From the IMG/VR virus record IMGVR_UViG_3300009001_000099, positions 1 to 23,335 of that record: a stretch of DNA of 23,335 nt. The stretch is one strand, 5' to 3'. The notes under the pieces are model-generated. The model was given only the letters and a program-made list of their open reading frames with translations, was not told the DNA's origin and made no database searches. Both the position numbers and the translations under genes were made by a program. Shown one piece after another: positions 4,456-19,570 of the stretch. The stretch comes from a virus. The stretch's first letter is position 1; each line of letters starts with the position of its first letter.

Positions 4456-4479
4456 CTCTTTATTTAGGAAAGTTACTCG

Positions 4480-5028
4480 CTAGCTATTAGTCCCTTCCGT
4501 AACTGTTACCGTAGCTGAAGCCATTCCAGCGTAAGGATCCGAAGCCGTTGGACTATCGATAAAGTTAGCTGGCTCTTTTTCTTGAGCAGTTAAGGTTAAG
4601 GTATACCCGCTAAGGTCCCCCATACTAGCCCCGCTTACTATGGTTCCTCCAGAAACGTCCGCTCCATGTTCTAAGCCCATTAAAAAGACGTTACCGTTAT
4701 AATCTTCTACCGCTACATGAGGTCTCCCATACGCTAGAAGTTTTAGCTCTTTATTATCTTCCTTAGAAAGTTTTTTAAGAGTAAGGTTTAAAGTTTGCTC
4801 GTAGAATACAGTACCATTCTCTCTTGAAGCGTTTACTGTTTGCTCAAAGCTACTATTCCCTTTTAGTTCATATTTAAAAGCCGTAAAGGTTCCGCTTAAA
4901 TCTGTAATTTCGTCGTCTGTTTTAGTTACGGTTCCTAAATCTCCAAAATCCGTAAAATAAATAGCTTTCAGACCTCCGACTACATCTTTGCAGGGTTCCT
5001 TACGTCCTCTTGTTAAATCGCATGCCAT
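4480..5028 (-). CDS. Major tail tube protein (182 aa)
   Basis: The protein polymerises into the non-contractile tail tube. The N-terminus MACDLTRGRKEPCKD followed by GGLKAIYFTDF, and the later LSKEDNKELKLLAYGRPHVA, VEDYNGNVFLMGLEHGADVS and SGYTLTLTAQEKEPANFI, match my memory of the major tail proteins of flavobacterial siphoviruses; length and beta-rich character fit. The last 25 residues (SPTASDPYAGMASATVTVTE onward) look like a flexible tail. The gene is flanked on both sides by strong hairpin terminators and follows the capsid gene, so the level of its mRNA is probably set separately from that of neighbours, as expected for a protein needed in many copies. Confidence 0.8.
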   Translation of the reverse strand: MACDLTRGRKEPCKDVVGGLKAIYFTDFGDLGTVTKTDDEITDLSGTFTAFKYELKGNSSFEQTVNASRENGTVFYEQTLNLTLKKLSKEDNKELKLLAYGRPHVAVEDYNGNVFLMGLEHGADVSGGTIVSGASMGDLSGYTLTLTAQEKEPANFIDSPTASDPYAGMASATVTVTEGTNS

Positions 5029-5040
5029 ATCTTTTTAGTA

Positions 5041-5079
5041 TTAAAAAAGGGTAGGCAGGCTCTCTGGCTTACCTACCCC
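5041..5079 (-). terminator. Intrinsic terminator between major capsid and tail tube genes
   Basis: The minus strand has a long hairpin: GGGTAGG pairs with CCTACCC, extended inward by further pairs with one mismatch, around an AGAG loop region, then six T. It is preceded by AAAGG as in the terminator at 4429-4455, and both share the GGGTAG/CTACCC outer stem. Only 12 bases separate the T-run from the next ATG, so read-through must supply the tail tube gene unless a promoter overlaps the T-run. Confidence 0.85.
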
Positions 5080-5102
5080 TTTAAGTTAAATTATTCTAAT
5101 TC

Positions 5103-6056
5103 TTAGTTAGCAGAGTTAGTAATACCGTAAGTTACGATATCTTCTACTACTCCGTACTGAACTCCTGCAGTAAATCGCATTACGACTCTTACGTTATCTG
5201 AACCGTCTAAGTCGCTCATATCTAATACTTTAACTTCGTTATGATCTGCTAAGAGACCAGTTCCAAAGAATAAGTTAGATTTCTCAGCCGCAATAGCAGT
5301 ATTGTCTCCTAATCCGTTAGCTACGAAGATTTTTACTCCGTCGAAAGTAAGAGATCCGTTATTCCACCATTGAGTACCCATCGCGTTAGTACCCGCAGCA
5401 CCTAGTCCAGAAGAACCAAATCCTCCTAAAGCACGAACGTAAGCTCTAGCGATATTCTGAGAAACGTATACATTAAGATCTTCAGCACCGTAAAGAGCAG
5501 AAGGAATAGCGTCTACGATTTTTCCTAGCTCAGTAATTACGTTAGAAGCAGTTACTGTAGTAGAAGCTACTTCTTGAGCCGCTGGTAAGTCCGCGTCTAA
5601 AGCTAAAGTAGTAGAGAATCCGTCGAACTGTCCATTAGTAGAAGTATCTCCTGCCCAGATAGAGTTTTCAGTTCTCTGCGCTACTTTTGCAGCTACATGA
5701 GAAATTAAGAAATCGCTAAAAGAAGGAGGTAAATCGTGGTGCGCTGAATAGCCCATTTGAATTGCTTCCCAGTCTGAGATAAAGTCTTTCTTACAAAGTT
5801 GTAAGTTTACTTGCTGAAATTCTGGTTGAAGAACTCTCTCAGTAAGGGTAATTGTAGAAGTTGCGTCAAAGTCGCATGAAGCATCTTTTACGATATCGTT
5901 AGTAGATACTTTCTTAATTACCTCTTTAAATTTTACGTTAGGTTTAACTGTAATCCCTCCGTTTTCGATTGTAGATCCACTTAGAAGGGCCGCACTAATA
6001 TATTGACCAGCCGATTCCCCTGCGTAAGTAGAAGTAATTGAAGTTGTTGTTGCCAT
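5103..6056 (-). CDS. Major capsid protein, HK97-like (317 aa)
   Basis: The most abundant virion protein, forming the icosahedral head. Its length, the alpha/beta pattern, and the segments VLQPEFQQVNLQLCKKDF, HVAAKVAQRTENSIWAGD and LNVYVSQNIARAYVRALGGF fit HK97-fold capsid proteins of Bacteroidota phages; the region WNNGSLTFDGVKIFVANGLG and the C-terminal MRFTAGVQYGVVEDIVTYG fit the A-domain end. There is no N-terminal delta domain of notable length, which agrees with a separate scaffold gene immediately upstream (gap of 5 bases). Codons appear more GC-rich and regular than in neighbours, as expected for high expression. A terminator follows 24 bases after the stop. Confidence 0.85.
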   Translation of the reverse strand: MATTTSITSTYAGESAGQYISAALLSGSTIENGGITVKPNVKFKEVIKKVSTNDIVKDASCDFDATSTITLTERVLQPEFQQVNLQLCKKDFISDWEAIQMGYSAHHDLPPSFSDFLISHVAAKVAQRTENSIWAGDTSTNGQFDGFSTTLALDADLPAAQEVASTTVTASNVITELGKIVDAIPSALYGAEDLNVYVSQNIARAYVRALGGFGSSGLGAAGTNAMGTQWWNNGSLTFDGVKIFVANGLGDNTAIAAEKSNLFFGTGLLADHNEVKVLDMSDLDGSDNVRVVMRFTAGVQYGVVEDIVTYGITNSAN

Positions 6057-6061
6057 TTTAT

Positions 6062-6682
6062 TTAATTATTAATTTTTGAAATTTTACTTAATACTCTGTC
6101 GTAAGTAGTCGTAGCTCTTTTCTGAGCAAATAGGTTTAAATTACGATCTACTTCTTTTTCTGGGTTATGTTTAACCTTAGGAATCTCCGAAAGCTCTTCT
6201 TTAATTTCTTCTTTCGCTTCTTCCTCTTTAATCTCTTCGCTAAGTTCTTCCTTAGGCTCTTCAGAAACTTCCTCGCTCATTTCTTCCTTGCTTTCAATCA
6301 TAGCCTTAATCTCTTCGATCATAGACTTAACCTCTGCAAGTTCTTCTTTTGTAGCGTATGCCATTTCTTCTTTATCTTCTTCGAGTTCTGTTTCCTCGTT
6401 AAGACTTTCCTCGCTAGGTTCCTCTTCCTCTTGAGCTGCGCCAATAGAATCGATAATTCCCTCCTCTTTGACCATTAAGACGTTCCCGTCCTCTAAAGTA
6501 TAGTCTCCTACGGGTAAAGCTACTTTTTCATCTTCAGTAACGATAAAGACCTCTTGGCCCGCAGCGAAAGACTCTGCTTCGATAACCGTTCCATTTTCTA
6601 AAGTAGCCGTCGCTAATTGTACTTCTTCCGTTTCGATAGAAAGAAGTTCTTTTGCTTTTTTAAGTACTTCGGTTGCTTTCAT
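6062..6682 (-). CDS. Acidic scaffold-like head assembly protein (206 aa)
   Basis: Scaffolds guide capsid assembly and are removed by the protease. Residues 1-80 form a compact domain (ATLENGTVIEAESFAAGQEV, DYTLEDGNVLMVKEEGIIDS). Residues about 85-165 are extremely Glu/Lys-rich and likely coiled coil (EELAEVKSMIEEIKAMIESK). The C-terminus (IPKVKHNPEKEV, FAQKRATTTYDRVLSKISKI) has the basic helix expected of a capsid-binding tail and is a familiar signature in flavobacterial phages. It lies directly upstream of the capsid gene. The plus-strand frame in this region is only the complement of the Glu-rich codons. Confidence 0.75.
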   Translation of the reverse strand: MKATEVLKKAKELLSIETEEVQLATATLENGTVIEAESFAAGQEVFIVTEDEKVALPVGDYTLEDGNVLMVKEEGIIDSIGAAQEEEEPSEESLNEETELEEDKEEMAYATKEELAEVKSMIEEIKAMIESKEEMSEEVSEEPKEELSEEIKEEEAKEEIKEELSEIPKVKHNPEKEVDRNLNLFAQKRATTTYDRVLSKISKINN

Positions 6683-6719
6683 ATAGTTATAATAAATTAA
6701 TAAACATTCTGTTAGATTT
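6683..6719 (-). promoter_or_regulatory. Promoter-like leader before the scaffold/capsid genes
   Basis: This 37-base gap carries AATGTTTA (6701-6708), an octamer also present before the genes starting at 17631 and 21399, followed by TTTATTATAA and a short spacer to the ATG at 6682. The position before the scaffold and capsid genes, whose products are needed in large amounts, makes a promoter plausible. It is not proved; no TTTG -33 box is evident. Confidence 0.4.
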
Positions 6720-7175
6720 TTAAGCCTTTTTCTGTATAATAAACCACTCGCTTCCGTCAGACCATACCGCTATACCTTCGTAAGCTTTGTTAATTTCGTA
6801 AGCTGAGGTACTGCCGTCTAGGTTTTGGCCGCTAGCTGGAGTTAAGTCTACTCTAGTTGCTGAAGAAAAAGTACTATCGGTAATAAATCTTAAAACCCTA
6901 TTTGTCGAATTAGAAGAAGTAGCATCTGGTAAGGTATAAGTAGCCGTTCCCGTTGCTCCGCTCCAAGTAAGCTTAATCATTAAAGCATTTTCGTAAGTAG
7001 AACTATCTAAGTCTACGCTTTCTCCCGCTAGAACTGTTTTAGATACTGTAATAATATGGTTATTAATATCTTTTATAGTAGTTCTTTTAGTCGTACTACT
7101 TTGTACTAAAGGTACTATCTCCGTACCCGTTAAGGTAGAGGCTGCCGTTAGTTCGCTTATTTTTTTATCTGCCAT
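6720..7175 (-). CDS. Fibre- or decoration-like protein (151 aa)
   Basis: The N-terminus ADKKISELTAASTLTGTEIV followed by PLVQSSTTKRTTIKDI is a common motif in phage fibre and virion-decoration proteins ('KISxLTxAxxLTGxExV'). The remainder is beta-rich (KLTWSGATGTATYTLPDATS) and ends in GIAVWSDGSEWFIIQKKA, which looks like a C-terminal beta domain. Its location between the Cys-rich small gene and the scaffold, inside the head module, favours a head fibre or decoration role over a tail fibre, but this is inference. It overlaps the preceding gene by one base (TAATG). Confidence 0.6.
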   Translation of the reverse strand: MADKKISELTAASTLTGTEIVPLVQSSTTKRTTIKDINNHIITVSKTVLAGESVDLDSSTYENALMIKLTWSGATGTATYTLPDATSSNSTNRVLRFITDSTFSSATRVDLTPASGQNLDGSTSAYEINKAYEGIAVWSDGSEWFIIQKKA

Positions 7176-7378
7176 TATTGATATAGTTTACTTTCGTTTT
7201 CTTGTATAAATTTTTCTCCTTCTTCTGTATATAGGAAAAATAGATATCTAGTTATATTACCTATTCCTTGAGCTTGAAAGCTACCGTCGCAGCACTTTCT
7301 AGAATAAGTACCGTCTTTACAGAGACATCCTCTTCTATCGTTTTTAGGACTCGGAGCTTTTTCGTTATAATCTCTCAT
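7175..7378 (-). CDS. Small Cys-rich protein with CLC-x7-8-CC motif (67 aa)
   Basis: The product has the tight motif KNDRRGCLCKDGTYSRKCCD followed by GSFQAQGIGNI, with four cysteines at residues 18, 20, 29 and 30, which could bind a metal or form disulfides. The C-terminal 25 residues are helical and acidic. I recall this motif in small proteins of head clusters in flavobacterial phages, with no known function. It is locked between its neighbours by one-base TAATG overlaps on both sides, so it is co-translated with the protease and the decoration-like protein. Confidence 0.65.
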   Translation of the reverse strand: MRDYNEKAPSPKNDRRGCLCKDGTYSRKCCDGSFQAQGIGNITRYLFFLYTEEGEKFIQENESKLYQ

Positions 7379-8319
7379 TACTCTATTAAACCTAAACCTT
7401 TTAATTTAGACTCAGCGTATCTTTTTGCTGAGAGGCCTCCCCATAATAAAAAACTTATCGTACCGCATGCTTCGTTATCTGAAGGATCGTAAAACTCCTC
7501 CGCTCTAGATAAGTAGCTATACATTCTTTTAATAGTCTCTATGCTTATAGGTTTACCTTGAGCTAATTGCTGCGCTCTAATCTTTCCTACTGGAGTAGCG
7601 CATTTATTATTTATTTTTTCGTTTAGCTCTATACCTCTTTTAGCATTATTCTTAACTGAGTCTGGATAATCACTATAGGACTCCATTTCTACCGTCTTAC
7701 CGTTTTTATATCTTTTGTCGCTTTTTATAATAGCGGTAATCTCGCTTAATAGGTATTCTGCTTCTTCTTCTTCTAGGGCTGCTAGAGAGTTAGGTTCATT
7801 AGGTCTTTCTAAACGATCTGCAAAATACCCCTCTATACTAAATCCTTTTACCTTACCAGTCTTAACGTAATTTTCCCAAACGTCGTCGTTTTGTACTTTC
7901 ATTGAAAGCATCCAAGTACCTACTGGCATACTCATGCCGTAAGCTGCGCTTTTATCTTTTTCAGAATCTTCTACTAACCAAGACTCTACGGCTACTAGTC
8001 CGCTTAATGCTTTACCATGTTCTAAAGTAGACTTATTATAGTTTCCTTTTATAAAGAATAATTCGCTAGCTTTTCTTACCGTATCTCTAGAGAAGTAAAT
8101 GTAATATTCGTTCTCTTCGTTTCTTCGATATATCGGTTTATTAGGAATAAGAGCAGCACCCATTAGAATACGCTTCTCTTTGTTCACTTCTGCAAATTTA
8201 ACCTCATGGTTTTTAAGTGCTATAAAGTCCTCTTCAATCGCAGGGTTTTCTACTATAGATACTGCCTCGATTCCCGAAATTTCATCTTCTTCGTCTATAA
8301 AAAGTTCTACTATATCCAT
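7378..8319 (-). CDS. XkdF-like prohead protease with C-terminal helical domain (313 aa)
   Basis: Residues 1-170 resemble the XkdF/phage serine protease-like family that matures the prohead: ISGIEAVSIVENPAIEEDFI, then ILMGAALIPNKPIYRR, YYIYFSRDTVRKASELFF, STLEHGKALSGLVAVESWLV and VKGFSIEGYF. H101 (LEHG) and S161 (GFSIEG) are the best candidates for catalytic residues. Residues about 210-313 form a separate domain (SDYPDSVKNNAKRGIELNEK, CATPVGKIRAQQLAQGKPIS, RMYSYLSRAEEFYD, CGTISFLLWGG, AKRYAESKL). This module is widely seen fused to phage head proteases and portals, with no role known to me. Place in the head module upstream of scaffold and capsid supports the call. Confidence 0.78.
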   Translation of the reverse strand: MDIVELFIDEEDEISGIEAVSIVENPAIEEDFIALKNHEVKFAEVNKEKRILMGAALIPNKPIYRRNEENEYYIYFSRDTVRKASELFFIKGNYNKSTLEHGKALSGLVAVESWLVEDSEKDKSAAYGMSMPVGTWMLSMKVQNDDVWENYVKTGKVKGFSIEGYFADRLERPNEPNSLAALEEEEAEYLLSEITAIIKSDKRYKNGKTVEMESYSDYPDSVKNNAKRGIELNEKINNKCATPVGKIRAQQLAQGKPISIETIKRMYSYLSRAEEFYDPSDNEACGTISFLLWGGLSAKRYAESKLKGLGLIE

Positions 8320-8348: not shown

Positions 8349-9938
8349 TTATCCTATCGACGCTTCGTTAGTAATATTTCTATCTAACTCTTGCTGGTTA
8401 CTAATTTCGTTACTTACTACAAAGGCCTTAATAGGCTTCTTTTCGTTTTGGCCTAAGGCTTCTGCTAATTGGTTTTCTGGAGCAGCTCCCACTATATTAA
8501 AAGCTGGGGCTTGAGACTCTCCTCTACCTCCGCTCATTCCTCCGCCTACTCCTCCCGTAGAAGTTTTAGCAGCACCTACCGCGTTTTTAATACTCATGAA
8601 GATACCCGCAGCTTGAGCAGCATACCCTATAAGTAAAGGTATATTCTGAGGAAAACCTACTTTAGCAGTCTGGGCCGTACCTTCTGCTAACGATACTGTA
8701 CTTCTTGCACTAGCTTGAGTAGCAAAGCTTATAGTTTTAGTAGCCTCTAATACTAATTCTCTAGCCTGCAGTACTGATTTAGCAATAAGAGCAGCTTTAC
8801 CTACTTTACTTTCTGCTCCCGCTATAGCTATTACATTATCTAGAGAGCTTCTTCGGGCCGCATCTAATTTAAGCTGGTTTTCTATTTGCGCTTGTAATAG
8901 AGCAGCGTTTTGATCTGCAGCATCCTTATTGAAGATGCTTATTTGCTGAGCTTTTATTCCTTCAGCCTCTACTTCTTTAATTCCTTGCTCTGTAATTACG
9001 TTTACCGTTTCTACCTTTTCTCTTTTTACTACGTCTATTTTACCGTCTCTTATTCTTTTCTGCTCTGCAGCTTCTAAGGCTAGTAATTCAGTTTCCTTTT
9101 TAAATATCTCTTCTTTCTCTGCGTTACTATCTCTTAATTGTTGTAACTCTGCTTCTAAAAGGCTTTTTCTTAATTGGAAAATCTTTTTAGCAGACTCTCC
9201 TGCAGCTTCGGCTACTGCTATTTCTCTTTCTAGTTCTTGTATAGAATTGCTTACCGCTTTCTTAGTTGCTATGGCCGCTCTTTCCGCTTCGTCTGGTAAA
9301 ATACCTAAGAACTCTAATACTGGTCTAGCAGCATCGAATAAATTATTAAAGGTAGTTTTTACCGCGTCTATAGCTTTACCTACAAAGGGTACGTTACTAG
9401 CAAATCTTTTTACTGCCTTAGTTATACTATCCCAGTTATTTATTATAGCAGCTAATAATATAGCAAAGGCTCCTACCCCAGTAGCTAATATTGCTTTTTT
9501 AGTAGTAGATCCAAATAACTTAGCAGCTACTCCAGATTTTTTAGCAGCTTGGGCTACTTGGCCAAATCCTTCCGATACGTCTTTAATTCCTAAACCTACC
9601 GCAATAGCTGAAGCAGCTTTTTGTTCGAACTCTCCGAAAGCTTCCGATTCGATTCCTAAAGTTCCTAGAGTACCTACTACCGCAGAGAGAGAACCTCCGA
9701 AAACTTTAGCCGCACCGTCTGCAGCTTGTAGTTTGTCGTCTAGATTAAATCCCTCTATCTGGTTATTAACCTTTTCTATCTCTTTAGTAAGTAACTGCGA
9801 CTTCTTAGCAGCTTCCTTAAAAGCGTCTGAATTTCTATCTAGGTCTTTTAGTTCTTGGTTTACGTCCTCTAGCATACCCTCTAGTTGACCTAGAGATTTA
9901 GAGTTTACGTCTATTTCTATTGTCTTTTTAACTGCCAT
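8349..9938 (-). CDS. Tail tape-measure protein (529 aa)
   Basis: This protein sets tail length and occupies the tube lumen. The N-terminal 70 residues are coiled coil (LGQLEGMLEDVNQELKDLDR onward), followed by an Ala/Gly-rich region with a hydrophobic segment (AILATGVGAFAILLAAIINN, about 149-168), a long coiled coil (about 230-360) and a second hydrophobic Ala-rich stretch (NIPLLIGYAAQAAGIFMSIK). A Gly-rich linker (GGVGGGMSGGRG) precedes the C-terminus. This layout is typical of tape measures. At about 0.15 nm per residue the tail would be near 80 nm, i.e. short. Unlike in most siphoviruses, it is followed by head genes, not by distal tail genes. Confidence 0.8.
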   Translation of the reverse strand: MAVKKTIEIDVNSKSLGQLEGMLEDVNQELKDLDRNSDAFKEAAKKSQLLTKEIEKVNNQIEGFNLDDKLQAADGAAKVFGGSLSAVVGTLGTLGIESEAFGEFEQKAASAIAVGLGIKDVSEGFGQVAQAAKKSGVAAKLFGSTTKKAILATGVGAFAILLAAIINNWDSITKAVKRFASNVPFVGKAIDAVKTTFNNLFDAARPVLEFLGILPDEAERAAIATKKAVSNSIQELEREIAVAEAAGESAKKIFQLRKSLLEAELQQLRDSNAEKEEIFKKETELLALEAAEQKRIRDGKIDVVKREKVETVNVITEQGIKEVEAEGIKAQQISIFNKDAADQNAALLQAQIENQLKLDAARRSSLDNVIAIAGAESKVGKAALIAKSVLQARELVLEATKTISFATQASARSTVSLAEGTAQTAKVGFPQNIPLLIGYAAQAAGIFMSIKNAVGAAKTSTGGVGGGMSGGRGESQAPAFNIVGAAPENQLAEALGQNEKKPIKAFVVSNEISNQQELDRNITNEASIG

Positions 9939-13883: not shown

Positions 13884-15403
13884 TACAATCTTCTTAATTC
13901 TTTAGTATTCCAATCTTTTAAATAAACCGCAGCGATAGTATAATTACTACCGAAAGTTAAAACGTATTCAAACTGAGTAACTGATGCGAGATAAGTACTA
14001 CCCTTAGTCTTTCTTATATAAGTATGATGCCCATTAGGAAACTCCGCTACTTTACCTAAATAACAGAGCTGCTTTCCTTCCCATGCTCCACTAGGAGCTA
14101 ATACGTCCTCCGCCTTTATTTCGTATCTACAATAGCTTATATTCTTTTCTATGAAATTCGTATAAACGTCTCCAGTCTTTACTCCAAAATACCAAAGTTC
14201 TGTTTTATCTGCACAAGGATCTACGATTTCTACTGGCTCTGCAGGCTGCCAAATTCTAGCCTCGCAATCTATTGTACTACCGCTATTAGAAAAACCAGAA
14301 GCAGGAGTCTGTATAGTATAGGTAACCGTTCTACGAGTAGCCTCTTGTACTCTAGTAAATTTACTAGGAGTAAAGCTATCGATAGTTAAATAGTATTCTG
14401 GATCGTCTTTTCCTAGAGGTGCAGCATGCCATTTAGCTACTCCTGCAGTTACGTTGCCGTCTACTAATATAGCTTGATCGTCTAAATCTACGTCTGAGCA
14501 TTCAAAGGCGAAAAGAGTAATATTAGATTTTTGCGTATACGTTACGTTACATTCTATTGTCGAACCAGAATTAGAATACCCATTAGGTACTAATACGTCG
14601 TAATATAAAGTAACGCTTATTTCTGAGCCAGTATTATTAGCAGCTATACTCGCAACCGAAGCACCTCCGCTAGTTTCTTTAGTTGCGGTAACTGTGCCTA
14701 TAGAAGAAGGGGTAGTAAGAGTTCCGTCTTTTGCTACTGCTCCCCCAATTAGATTAGCCGTACTACAGTCGAAAGCTACTGGAGCAGAAAGAGTAGTACT
14801 TACAGTTTGTTTAGCACTACAGCCCGTTACATTATCTATTCTTTCTAATTGTATTGTAAATACTCCTGCAGTATCTCTAGAGGTAATAGTTATTTCTTCG
14901 TCTATCGTATTTATGCTAGTATCTAAGTAAGCTCCGTTAGAATTTAAAACTATATCGTTAAAATCTGAAGTAGTACCCGTAAAATAACTAGAATAGTCTA
15001 TAGTTACCGAACTTCCTCCAGTATTTAAAGATTGACTAGGAATAGATCCGCTAGGACTTACTACGGCAGGGCAGCTTACTGGTTTAGCTTCTTGAGTAGC
15101 CGTAACTTCGCAAATAATTGCTGATCCCTCATTACTAAAACCCGCAGGGGCTATAATAGTAAGTTTTAGAGTTCTAATAGTATCGCTACTTACCTCCGCA
15201 AAAGTATCATTAGAAAAATCTGCAGCATCTGAAGTATAAGACTGTATAGCTCCATATTCTAAGACGGGCAAAGATATAGTTCCGCTTTGGTCTACAGAAA
15301 AGTTAGCTGCATTAGCATACCCGCAAGTAAATTCGGGAGTAGGATCTATAGGCTCCGTATAACTTAGATAATAAGGGCTTCTTATATTTATTTTAGTACT
15401 CAT
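13883..15403 (-). CDS. Tail protein with three repeated Cys-paired beta domains (506 aa)
   Basis: Three related modules of about 80 residues lie at about 25-104, 211-290 and 299-387. Each starts with F-[TDE]-C, and ends with P-[AN]-x-G-[FY]-SN-[SE]-GS-x-I-x-C. The cysteine pairs are C27/C98, C213/C285 and C301/C380. A fourth, different domain lies between the first two (about 105-205, C111/C195). The C-terminal about 110 residues (CADKTELWYFGVKTGDVYTN, QLCYLGKVAEFPNGHHTYIR) are different and contain a His pair. The pattern suggests Ig-like sandwiches, a common feature of proteins that contact the host surface. It overlaps the preceding gene by 4 bases. Function in adsorption is inferred. Confidence 0.65.
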   Translation of the reverse strand: MSTKINIRSPYYLSYTEPIDPTPEFTCGYANAANFSVDQSGTISLPVLEYGAIQSYTSDAADFSNDTFAEVSSDTIRTLKLTIIAPAGFSNEGSAIICEVTATQEAKPVSCPAVVSPSGSIPSQSLNTGGSSVTIDYSSYFTGTTSDFNDIVLNSNGAYLDTSINTIDEEITITSRDTAGVFTIQLERIDNVTGCSAKQTVSTTLSAPVAFDCSTANLIGGAVAKDGTLTTPSSIGTVTATKETSGGASVASIAANNTGSEISVTLYYDVLVPNGYSNSGSTIECNVTYTQKSNITLFAFECSDVDLDDQAILVDGNVTAGVAKWHAAPLGKDDPEYYLTIDSFTPSKFTRVQEATRRTVTYTIQTPASGFSNSGSTIDCEARIWQPAEPVEIVDPCADKTELWYFGVKTGDVYTNFIEKNISYCRYEIKAEDVLAPSGAWEGKQLCYLGKVAEFPNGHHTYIRKTKGSTYLASVTQFEYVLTFGSNYTIAAVYLKDWNTKELRRL

Positions 15404-15921
15404 GGTCTTAATCTTTTTTCGTTAAGCGAAAAGGCTAATAAATCTTCTACGTCTAATCCAAATCTTTCTATTAGTTCGTCTGGTAATTTCTTAAAGTATT
15501 TCTCGAAGGGCTTAGTAAAAAATAAGCTAGGCTTTATTCCTTTCTTATATACGCTTCTAGCTATTATATAACCCATGCTTTTATAGGTTCCAAATTTTCC
15601 GTTCTTTAATCTAGGCTGAAGGCCTCTAAATCTAGCCCAGTCTATAAAATGTTTACCAGAAGGTATCTTATTAGTATAAGAGTAAGGAGTATTAAATTTT
15701 CTTTCCGTACCGCTTACCCCTTTGTCTTGGTATAAACCATATTCCTCCATAGAAAAACTAAGCTCGAAGCTATTCTCGTATACTTCGAAGTCTCCGCTTA
15801 TACTTTCGTATAACTTTTTACTTACCCTCTTTCTTTTCTTGGATAGATTATGCTTAGCCTCTCTTACGATCTTATCTCTAAACTCTTCTAAGTACTTTCT
15901 ACCTTCTCCCGTCGTTAGCAT
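15400..15921 (-). CDS. HK97 gp10-like tail completion protein (173 aa)
   Basis: The N-terminal half is basic and helical (YLEEFRDKIVREAKHNLSKK), followed by SFELSFSMEEYGLYQDKG, the 'Y..y...G' core of HK97 gp10-type proteins, and near the C-terminus GIKPSLFFTKPFEKYFKKLP, which matches the usual 'kpspFf..a' end of that family. Such proteins sit at the head-tail joint. The region between (PYSYTNKIPSGKHFIDWARF) is a longer insertion than in short members. It overlaps the tail-terminator-like gene by 7 bases. The family call is fairly good; the precise joint position is inferred. Confidence 0.7.
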   Translation of the reverse strand: MLTTGEGRKYLEEFRDKIVREAKHNLSKKRKRVSKKLYESISGDFEVYENSFELSFSMEEYGLYQDKGVSGTERKFNTPYSYTNKIPSGKHFIDWARFRGLQPRLKNGKFGTYKSMGYIIARSVYKKGIKPSLFFTKPFEKYFKKLPDELIERFGLDVEDLLAFSLNEKRLRP

Positions 15922-16370
15922 ACTGTCATATCGTTTTGAACTAAAATATCTAAGGTAGATACCCAGCCTGCAAGTTTATTCTCAAATCTATCTACAAAAG
16001 GTTCGCAAGTAACCGCTCCTTCTACTTGGTATTTATCTTGGTATAAAGTACCTCTTTGTAATAAAGCTATTAATCTATTCTGGATTGCTAGCTGCGTATT
16101 TAGAATATCCTGCTCGTTATCGTTTCCTATAAAGTTATCTGTAGTTTCCGATTTACTTTCGTCTACTACGTCCATAGAAAGCACGCTAATATTAAACGTA
16201 ATAAAGTTAGAATTTACTGTAGCGTTATTTACTATAATATGCGATAGAGGAAAGATAGTAGTCTTATTCAAATCTATATCGTCTAGGCTACCGTAAGAGA
16301 CAGTATTAACGAAAGGCTCCGCTATTAAGGTATCTTTTATTTTATCGGTTAATTCGTAGAAGGCTTTCAT
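15915..16370 (-). CDS. Tail terminator-like protein (151 aa)
   Basis: An alpha/beta protein with N-terminal helix YELTDKIKDTLIAEPFVNTV, central strands SHIIVNNATVNSNFITFNIS and SVLSMDVVDES, a helix NTQLAIQNRLIALLQRG and C-terminal strands CEPFVDRFENKLAGWVSTLD followed by ILVQNDMTVC. This arrangement and length fit tail terminator proteins, which cap the tube at the end joining the head, and I recall this family from flavobacterial phages. Its ATG overlaps the stop of the frameshifted chaperone frame as ATGA, which links its translation to ribosomes that have shifted frame. The function is inferred. Confidence 0.6.
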   Translation of the reverse strand: MKAFYELTDKIKDTLIAEPFVNTVSYGSLDDIDLNKTTIFPLSHIIVNNATVNSNFITFNISVLSMDVVDESKSETTDNFIGNDNEQDILNTQLAIQNRLIALLQRGTLYQDKYQVEGAVTCEPFVDRFENKLAGWVSTLDILVQNDMTVC

Positions 16371-17115
16371 TTCTTAAATTTTTCTAACTGTTTCTTTTCT
16401 AATTCTATCTTTTCTTTTTCGAAGGCTAAAAATAATAGAGCTTGGTGCATGTTTAATCGGGTAGCAATATCGAAGCGGGTAGCATCTCCCTTAGCAAGTC
16501 CGTAAATTGATTGGAACCAGCCCCACTTCTTTCCAAAGCCGCTAATACTTCCGTATTCATTTGGTTCGGAGCTTCCCTCTTCAAATAATTCAGGATAGTT
16601 TCTAGTAACTCGTTGTTTAAACGGTAAAAAAAAACCATAGCTCCCATCGCTATACCTAGAGGCATCTTCTTAAATACCTCAGCATTATCTAGGCCCTTAT
16701 ATTCTTCTATAAGATATTTACCTTCTTTCTTATAGTTAATAGGTCTATATAGGACCGCCATAGCTTTATGGATTGTTTCCCACTCCGTAAGGTTTTCGTC
16801 TAGATCTATAAACTCCCCTATAGTCATATCGTCGAGCTTAGGGATAAATCCGTATTCTATACCTTCTAAACTAAACGTAGGAACTAGATCTGTTTTTTCA
16901 GTAAATAGCCTATCTATATCTCCTAAGATTTCTTTTATACTAGTAACTCTTATAGTAGCTATATCTTTAAGCTCTAGGCCGCAGAATATCTCTACCGTCT
17001 TATGGAATAAGAAATTAGAGTTTTGGTTTTCTTCCGTATTTATCTTATCGAATCGCTGATATTGTTCTAGCGTAATCTCGTTAAGGTTTTCGGGTACGTT
17101 TATTTCTAGCTTCAT
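16367..17115 (-). CDS. Tail assembly chaperone-like protein, -1 frameshift product (249 aa)
   Basis: The product is the first 167 residues of the shorter frame joined, by a -1 shift, to an 82-residue extension read from 16615 down to the stop at 16367-16369. The extension starts QRVTRNYPELFEEG and contains GFGKKWGWFQSIYGLAKGD, ATRFDIATRLNMHQALLFLA and FEKEKIELEKKQ, which looks like real protein and resembles a C-terminus I know from flavobacterial phages. Coordinates cover both parts; read continuously they do not give this protein. The arrangement parallels lambda G/GT, where the longer form brings tail tube subunits to the tape measure. The stop overlaps the next start (ATGA). Frameshifting has not been measured; a one-base homopolymer error could also explain it. 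Confidence 0.68.
16453..17115 (-). CDS. Tail assembly chaperone-like protein, unshifted form (220 aa)
   Basis: The uninterrupted frame gives NVPENLNEITLEQYQRFDKI, LFHKTVEIFCGLELKDIATI, GFIPKLDDMTIGEFIDLDEN and HKAMAVLYRPINYKKEGKYL, a set of motifs I recall in Bacteroidota siphovirus tail regions. After residue 167 the frame continues with NELLETILNYLKREAPNQ and QFTDLLREMLPASI, so it stays open for 53 more codons while the -1 frame also codes. It is the first gene after a hairpin terminator and has an AT-rich leader (TTATTATTAATAT) before the ATG, so it may have its own promoter. The chaperone role follows from the frameshift and position in the tail module, not from a database match. Confidence 0.72.
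   Translation of the reverse strand: MKLEINVPENLNEITLEQYQRFDKINTEENQNSNFLFHKTVEIFCGLELKDIATIRVTSIKEILGDIDRLFTEKTDLVPTFSLEGIEYGFIPKLDDMTIGEFIDLDENLTEWETIHKAMAVLYRPINYKKEGKYLIEEYKGLDNAEVFKKMPLGIAMGAMVFFYRLNNELLETILNYLKREAPNQMNTEVLAALERSGAGSNQFTDLLREMLPASILLPD
16615..16633 (-). promoter_or_regulatory. Probable -1 ribosomal frameshift site with two slippery heptamers
   Basis: On the minus strand, in the chaperone frame, T TTT TTT (16627-16633) is followed six bases later by T TTA AAC (16615-16621). Both fit X-XXY-YYZ in the exact phase for a -1 shift, and T TTA AAC is among the most efficient known heptamers. A slip at either leads into the same -1 frame, which stays open to 16367. I saw no strong stem-loop just downstream by eye. 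Confidence 0.72.
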
Positions 17116-17683: not shown

Positions 17684-18853
17684 TTAGTAAATAAAATATT
17701 CCCCCTTATTCGGGTTCTCTAGAGTATCGGTAAGAATATATCTAGCCGCATCTATACAGTCTGGGTGCGCTCCGCTTGGCTTTTGTAACGTATTACCGTC
17801 TTTATCTTTAGCCCAAACGTAACCCTCCAGCTCTCGCTTTAAGTTCTTACTTCTTGAAGTTATATATATCTCGTTTTGGTTTATTAGATTTATACCATAT
17901 ACTACGGAATCTCTTCCTTTGGATACTGGGAAAACATTATGGCCGTAGCTTACTAGTTCCGCTATACTCTTAGGCTCTGCGGAATCGGCTATTATATTTT
18001 CTTTTATATTATTCTCTTGCAAGAAGTAGGAGATATCTCTATTTAGCATTCCTTTCTTATAAAGTACTTCGTCAAAGATATAGGCCTCGTTCCATTTGTA
18101 TAATCCTATTAGCGTACTAGGATCCACAGAATAACCGAAGTCCATACCATACCCTATAAGTCTAGCTTCTTCTGGTATATTATCTATTTCTCTCCAATCT
18201 GGTATACATGCCCCAGAAAGAGATCCCTGCTCTCCAAGACCGTAGACTCTCCACCAGTTGGCCCAAAAAGTTGAGGTCTTAGCTTTCTCTCTAGCCTTTT
18301 CTATTTCTTTTACTATAGAAGGCGCTAAAGCATCGTTATCTTTATAGGTAAGAGTTATATAATCTACGTCTGGCTCTCCTATTATTTCTTTATCTACCCA
18401 GAAGGCATGCGAAGGGTTATAATCTAACCAGATATTCCCAGAGGTTCTTATTTGGAGTTCCGAGAAAGCAGAAAAAGAGATATTATTACACTCATTAATA
18501 AAGAGATCTGTACGGCGACTACCGCGTAATTTGTCTGGCTGGTCCGTACTAAAGAACTCTATATAGCTTCCGTTAGTAAAAGTATATTTTAAAGTACTGC
18601 GATTAAATTGGTTTTCTTTATATCTATTAAGGCCTTTTAGGATATTTAAAAAATCTTTTAATGCTCCCCGTCTTACTGCAGGAATAGACTCAGCTACTAC
18701 GCTTATTTCTTTTCCTTCTTGAGTAATTGCCTCGTTAATTAGTATAGCTAGTATACAGATAGTTTTACCCGCAGAGGTTCCACCCTTCACTACTTTAGTT
18801 CTTTGGGTTAATTCTCTTAGTTTATAAAATGCTGGGGTTTTCTTTATCCGCAT
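17684..18853 (-). CDS. terL: Terminase large subunit
   Basis: The ATPase/nuclease motor that packages DNA through the portal. Walker A is GGTSAGKT (24-31) and the Walker B-like segment is DLFINE (116-121, with E121 catalytic), followed by the coupling motif LDYNPS (143-148). The C-terminal nuclease domain shows MDFGYSVDPSTLIGLYKW (D248), IIADSAEPKSIAEL (D300) and HPDCIDAARY (D365, D368), the expected RNase H-like acidic set. The length of 389 aa is on the short side, with only about 20 residues before Walker A, but both domains are complete. The gene follows the small subunit after a 30-base gap. Confident call. Confidence 0.95.
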   Translation of the reverse strand: MRIKKTPAFYKLRELTQRTKVVKGGTSAGKTICILAILINEAITQEGKEISVVAESIPAVRRGALKDFLNILKGLNRYKENQFNRSTLKYTFTNGSYIEFFSTDQPDKLRGSRRTDLFINECNNISFSAFSELQIRTSGNIWLDYNPSHAFWVDKEIIGEPDVDYITLTYKDNDALAPSIVKEIEKAREKAKTSTFWANWWRVYGLGEQGSLSGACIPDWREIDNIPEEARLIGYGMDFGYSVDPSTLIGLYKWNEAYIFDEVLYKKGMLNRDISYFLQENNIKENIIADSAEPKSIAELVSYGHNVFPVSKGRDSVVYGINLINQNEIYITSRSKNLKRELEGYVWAKDKDGNTLQKPSGAHPDCIDAARYILTDTLENPNKGEYFIY

Positions 18854-19156: not shown

Positions 19157-19570
19157 TTAACTGTTAATTACTAGTTGATCTATTAGGATTCTTTTCTCTT
19201 TTCTTTCTTGTCTTAGGGCTAATAAAGCAGAAGCGTATTTCTTACGATAGTAAGCTGCAGGATTTATTTCTTTGTCCCTTACTCCGTTCTCTTTCTTTAT
19301 GTATATAACTAATTTGTTATATATCTCTAAGTACTCTCTAGCATCTTCGTAAACGCTTATCTGCTGGTCGAATACTTTTAAACCATGTAGGGCAGTGGCA
19401 TGATCTCTTTCTACTAGGCTAGCTATTCTAGCTAAAGAGTTTCTAGTATTTAGTCTGGCTAGTTTATAATATATAGCCCTAGCGTATACTGTTTCTCTTT
19501 TTCGGTTTTTACTTGCTAGTTTAGTCTCGGTTTCCTTTTCGACTATTTCGAGTATTGTTTCTAATTTCAT
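19157..19570 (-). CDS. Stand-alone DnaA domain IV-like DNA-binding protein (137 aa)
   Basis: Residues about 24-65 match the helix-turn-helix of bacterial DnaA domain IV: RETVYARAIYYKLARLNT, then LARIASLVERDHATALHGLK, where RDHATALHG corresponds to the DnaA signature RDHTTVLHA that contacts the DnaA box. The AAA+ ATPase domain is absent. The C-terminal half is helical and basic (YYRKKYASALLALRQERKEK). Such proteins occur in Bacteroidota phages near replication genes. It could mark the phage origin, act as a regulator, or compete with host DnaA; the sequence does not decide. The start lies inside the preceding 80-aa gene (50-base overlap). No DnaA box (TTATCCACA) was seen nearby by eye. Confidence 0.8.
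   Translation of the reverse strand: MKLETILEIVEKETETKLASKNRKRETVYARAIYYKLARLNTRNSLARIASLVERDHATALHGLKVFDQQISVYEDAREYLEIYNKLVIYIKKENGVRDKEINPAAYYRKKYASALLALRQERKEKRILIDQLVINS

Follow-up and report, generated by a model that had tools for sequence, protein, structure and literature searches.

A putative recoding gene with an invariant run of nine T in Bacteroidota phages, probably encoding a pair of tail assembly proteins

Introduction

The production of two proteins from one gene by -1 ribosomal frameshifting is described for the tail gene clusters of phages lambda (G/GT) and HK97 (gp13/14), where a short product is accompanied by a version of it extended in the -1 frame, and where the pair is encoded between the genes for the major tail protein and the tape measure. 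Downstream stimulators of -1 frameshifting are common but not obligatory. The recoding known in tail genes is ribosomal (PMC5009743), U_UUU_UUC is among the efficient frameshift motifs of E. coli (PMC4066793), and in the SEA-PHAGES data the slip lies on average 26 nt from the stop of the 0 frame (PMC10885494).

Overlapping frames may also be joined by RNA polymerase, as in Shigella mxiE and Thermus dnaX, where transcriptional slippage occurs on nine identical A or T bases and needs no downstream structure. The published slippage range of RNA polymerase covers Tn with n>8 (PMC3711429), slippage is efficient at nine A or T (PMC5009743), and the known T9/A9 cases come from bacterial genes and IS elements (PMC1088944, PMC5009743); in the literature covered, which has most subscription journals outside it, we found no tail assembly gene that uses polymerase slippage.

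The locus analyzed here lies in an IMG/VR virus record of 23,335 bases (the window), and what appears to be new about it is that a phage gene read in two frames carries nine consecutive T as its invariant signal. It shares with the lambda and HK97 pairs the predicted short and -1 extended products of a single gene and the setting in a tail gene cluster, and differs from them in its neighbours, which are the terminase on the upstream side and a neck-type gene on the downstream side, with about 6.4 kb separating it from the tape-measure-like gene, in the invariant T9, in the lack of detectable homology and in the distance from the slip to the 0-frame stop, which is about 165–210 nt. With mxiE and dnaX it shares the nine identical bases between overlapping frames, the difference being that this is a phage gene and that slippage here is a candidate from sequence alone. 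The closest counterpart is found in the Nonlabens phages P12024L/S, whose gp40 and gp41 (PHROG 32199, and by inference 38404) constitute the same gene with the T9 run and a -1 domain containing KWGWY, although they were deposited as two hypothetical proteins and the 0-frame tail is only 25 aa long.

Results

The 0-frame gene of the window (16453..17115, minus strand) encodes 220 aa, of which residues 1–163 would be common to both products. On the minus strand its slip region reads GTT TTT TTT TAC CGT TTA AAC, in which the T9 run (16626..16634), the putative recoding site, contains the slippery heptamer T TTT TTT (16627..16633) and is followed by a second heptamer, T TTA AAC (16615..16621), both of them phased for a -1 slip. 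From 16669 the -1 frame runs uninterrupted to a stop ending at 16367, giving an extension (16367..16627, minus strand) of 86 aa plus stop when counted from the first heptamer, or of 82 aa when counted from the second, and a fusion product of 249 aa whichever of the two serves. The TGA closing the -1 frame shares bases with the start codon of the following gene (ATGA), and the stretch from 16453 to 16625 (minus strand) is read in both frames, as a 0-frame tail of 57 codons and as the -1 domain. The sequence-only reading of this DNA had described the two in-phase heptamers, the 82-residue extension open to 16367 with its 249-aa fusion and the ATGA overlap, and all of these proved exact.

Relatives were collected from IMG/VR with several queries (the -1 domain, the protein of the 0 frame, the homologue from P12024L and an alignment), the search patterns being degenerate at the codon level so that T was not selected over C. 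The alignment scan gave at least 595 confirmed matching loci; removal of identical stretches left 217 distinct loci for analysis, which form 90 clusters below 80% similarity and include 209 complete copies. A heptamer of the X XXY YYZ type is conserved in phase at the junction in all 217, as T TTT TTT, and at the homologous place every relative has a homopolymer of at least nine T, namely T9 in 212 and T10 in the other five, which keep the 0 frame because their codon 161 is TTT. The -1 frame extends beyond the 0-frame stop in each of the 209 complete copies. The same two-frame layout is present in a contig of a Bacteroidetes MAG (L109) and in the isolated phage P12024L, which is only about 28% identical and has CTT TTT TTT TAT followed by the -1 domain with KWGWY.

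These data bear directly on whether the two frames are real. Nine-T runs are error-prone in some sequencing methods, and a miscounted base splitting a single 249-aa gene was the alternative that the sequence-only reading itself had offered; the frame relation is nonetheless the same in 217/217 distinct loci and in a deposited isolate genome, with no single fused frame among the 217, and we consider such an artefact ruled out. The count of nine T can thus be trusted, as the same run recurs in hundreds of independent contigs and in the isolate genome. T runs are slippery for DNA polymerase too, which would allow run length to change in the DNA and switch the long form on and off between virions, but neither a fused genome nor a phase-changing length occurs among the 217, and phase variation is likewise rejected as extremely improbable. 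The programmed shift into the -1 frame, with a short and a long product, that had been proposed therefore stands as far as the layout kept in 217/217 relatives is concerned.

The second heptamer fared differently. It is a slippery heptamer in only 59 of the 209 complete copies (as TTTAAAC in 41 of those 59), and for this reason the tandem pair, earlier regarded as part of the device, is not a conserved one and T TTA AAC is probably incidental; as the main slip site it was rejected.

The earlier remark that the product of the -1 frame escapes gene callers is upheld, in that the join between the frames is missed by them. The P12024L record lists gp40 and gp41 as separate hypothetical proteins, the latter with an internal ATG as its annotated start, as though the -1 frame were an independent gene. 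Conservation in the -1 frame sets in ahead of that ATG, at the T run itself; in the window, this frame contains none of the start codons ATG, GTG and TTG from the run to the KWGW motif, and a start codon ahead of the conserved motif is found in only 18 of 209 relatives. An independent start was therefore rejected and is regarded as very improbable.

Database comparisons placed the gene only in families of unknown function. In PHROGs, phrog_32199 matches all 13 aligned members and phrog_38404 one of the 13, the latter match being taken by inference as the P12024L tail. A tblastn search of isolated phages with the -1 domain by itself gave no match, Pfam and NCBIfam gave none for the products of the recoding gene, and no earlier description of the gene was found in the literature covered, to which most subscription journals do not belong. 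We consider the locus to be a recoding gene that is conserved among tailed Bacteroidota phages. As a separate observation on P12024L, a 2OG-Fe oxygenase, a glucosyl-HMC glucosyltransferase and a methyltransferase are annotated consecutively at 4464–6729, and three modification-type genes in a row suggest hypermodified DNA in this phage.

Selection on the T run was assessed in 46 representatives. Codons 161–163 are GTT in 45/45, TTT in 46/46 and TTT in 46/46, so that codon 163 (F163) is never TTC, whereas conserved control Phe columns do contain TTC (14/40, 2/40, 7/43 and 8/44), the control column V121 is GTT in 25/44, and all remaining well-conserved columns with synonymous freedom vary. On the coding strand of the 46 relatives (254 kb), T9 occurs at the slip site in 46/46 and only seven times elsewhere, and its presence at the site is therefore beyond chance. 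Among the 209 complete copies the nearest upstream -1 stop comes to within 5 nt of the run, and the +1 frame is closed within two codons in 195; these two limits identify the T run as the entry point into the -1 frame. Two loci, L063 and L223, have the run displaced by a single base, each in the opposite direction to the other (TTTTTTTTTCTA and AATTTTTTTTTG); the loss of a T from one end is offset by the gain of a T at the other, with nine T retained.

The two C-terminal tails differ in their conservation. The -1 tail has the consensus L.F..R....YPELF...F..KWGWYQSIY.LA.GD...CL.YL.FEKEK...E and an entropy of 1.63 bits, as against 2.07 bits for the 0-frame tail. When the two halves of the fusion were folded apart, the shared residues 1–163 were modelled with high confidence and the -1 domain as helices with pLDDT 74–83 over its conserved part, its model being moderate overall (mean pLDDT 70, pTM 0.41), while the 0-frame tail was of low confidence (pLDDT 31–56). 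Sequence and model together indicate that the -1 extension is a conserved helical domain; solved structures, searched by sequence and fold, gave no usable match, which does not speak against a known fold. The 0-frame tail, although only 25 aa in P12024L, may be under some selection, as suggested by the 0 frame remaining free of stops over a greater length than expected when the -1 frame is shuffled synonymously (a median P of 0.026 for single sequences, which are related and not independent).

The neighbourhood of the gene is of the tail type. Upstream lies the terminase large subunit (17684..18853, minus strand), which is close to the recoding gene in 40/46 relatives, and downstream a gene for 151 aa (15915..16370, minus strand), the one that begins in the ATGA overlap, which is conserved beside the recoding gene (syntenic in 41/46 relatives) and whose product we guess to be tail terminator-like. 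It is followed by a 173-aa gene (15400..15921, minus strand), whose P12024L homologue matches the tail completion/Neck1 family, then by further tail-type genes and by a gene for a 529-aa protein (8349..9938, minus strand), called tape-measure-like from its sequence character; gp50 of P12024L, similarly positioned, matches tape measure families. Two other genes of the window, both on the minus strand, may be mentioned: 7378–8319, which matches Peptidase_S78_2 (XkdF-type phage serine protease) in Pfam with E 3e-12 and is predicted to encode the head protease of this phage, and 19157–19570, encoding a 137-aa protein with a stretch, LARIASLVERDHATALHGLKVF, that may resemble the DNA-binding end of DnaA.

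Discussion

The mechanism that we propose would operate as follows. Normal decoding would yield the 220-aa protein, and some decoding events at T9 would enter the -1 frame and yield the 249-aa protein, which would keep the same first 163 residues and replace the remainder with a different, helical C-terminal domain of 86 residues. Two routes into the -1 frame may be envisaged, the addition of one U by RNA polymerase in the T run or a -1 slip of the ribosome on U UUU UUU, and both would give V-F-F-L at the junction and an identical fusion protein. The comparison of relatives demonstrates where the putative shift lies, that the -1 domain is conserved and that the gene is laid out in two frames, and the probable best explanation as a whole is a two-product gene recoded at T9 in Bacteroidota phages, most plausibly a tail pair of the G/GT type, with polymerase and ribosome both as candidate agents of the shift.

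The sequence-only reading had called the shift ribosomal. The in-phase heptamer conserved in 217/217 loci agrees with this, while what never varies is the presence of nine or more T, and nine T is also the threshold for polymerase slippage. A purely ribosomal -1 shift, in which U UUU UUU allows two tRNA-Phe to re-pair and the additional T's on its flanks are kept for the protein sequence only, is quite possible, if somewhat short of probable: the heptamer is in phase in every relative, tail gene recoding has a ribosomal precedent (PMC5009743), and the flanking T's also serve the hydrophobic residue 161 and the Leu codon of the -1 frame. Against it, the run is never 7 or 8 T long among 217 loci, although the heptamer needs only seven, codon 163 avoids TTC in all representatives, the register shifts of L063 and L223 are compensated, and no conserved downstream RNA structure was detected (80-nt windows in 46 representatives, mean z -0.38, two below -2, pseudoknots not included), so that a downstream hairpin was rejected as stimulator. 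The shape of the T run offers a suggestive argument for polymerase, even though compensated register shifts are confined to two lineages and part of the run is fixed by the residues required in the two frames.

RNA-polymerase slippage would thus fit the data at least as well as ribosomal frameshifting. For the shifting agent itself we slightly favour RNA polymerase adding one U, at roughly an even chance, over the ribosome slipping by -1 on U UUU UUU, which we hold to be a little under even, with a small share left for both or for another agent. The fuller proposition, that a widespread Bacteroidota phage family sets the ratio of two tail assembly proteins by polymerase slippage on an invariant T9, not by ribosomal frameshifting, with about 60 dual-coding codons behind it, is put forward tentatively.

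With regard to function, it had been suggested that the products are tail assembly chaperones. The two-product architecture and the tail-gene neighbourhood fit this suggestion, whereas homology to the lambda or HK97 proteins was not found and the tape-measure-like gene is no immediate neighbour. From the layout and the frozen site conserved in 217 loci, one gene is predicted to give both a short product and a longer, frameshifted one; the position usual for such chaperones, between the major tail protein and the tape measure and directly before the latter, was not found, and head and tail gene order is rearranged across this phage group as a whole. Most tail chaperone pairs overlap only briefly, and in this respect the 0-frame tail of about 60 codons counts against the chaperone reading. 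Profile comparison by hhalign with lambda G, lambda T and HK97 gp13 gave nothing, with single-sequence targets and low power, and the fold matches among the viral models of BFVD were mostly uncharacterised phage proteins, together with one weak match, at rank 43, that is named a tail assembly chaperone.

The same evidence leaves some room for products that are recoded but serve another step of head or tail assembly, such as a connector or scaffold. The gene sits between terminase and neck-type genes and not beside the tape measure, shows no detectable homology to known chaperones and has mostly uncharacterised fold matches, all of which would suit such a role; the combination of a two-product layout with a tail gene cluster, as in the G/GT device, and the one match named tail assembly chaperone speak against it, and we regard it as unlikely. 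A G/GT-like role of the two products in tail assembly is, by comparison, rather likely from the layout and the neighbourhood. In such a pair the abundant short form would bind the tape measure protein and the rarer long form would recruit tube subunits.

A further fold match, gp10 of Flavobacterium phage 6H (BFVD rank 35), was checked for the same device. In this phage (10050–10930, minus strand) a T TTT TTC lies at the end of gp10, close to its stop, and the unannotated stretch preceding gp09 has, in a different frame, the coding sequence of a plausible protein (…GLGMKGVLLSMAESGVYGPEQG…); the frames around gp10 gave no clean -1 join, and the stretch is perhaps a second recoded gene or perhaps a homopolymer error in the record.

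Conclusions

In conclusion, this study defines a previously unannotated, putatively recoded gene that is shared by a common group of Bacteroidota phages, with at least 595 loci matching it in IMG/VR, and it would explain gp40 and gp41 of P12024L as two halves of one protein, revealing a predicted product that ordinary annotation misses. If the shift proves to be transcriptional, tail assembly would join the few systems in which a protein ratio is fixed by polymerase slippage.
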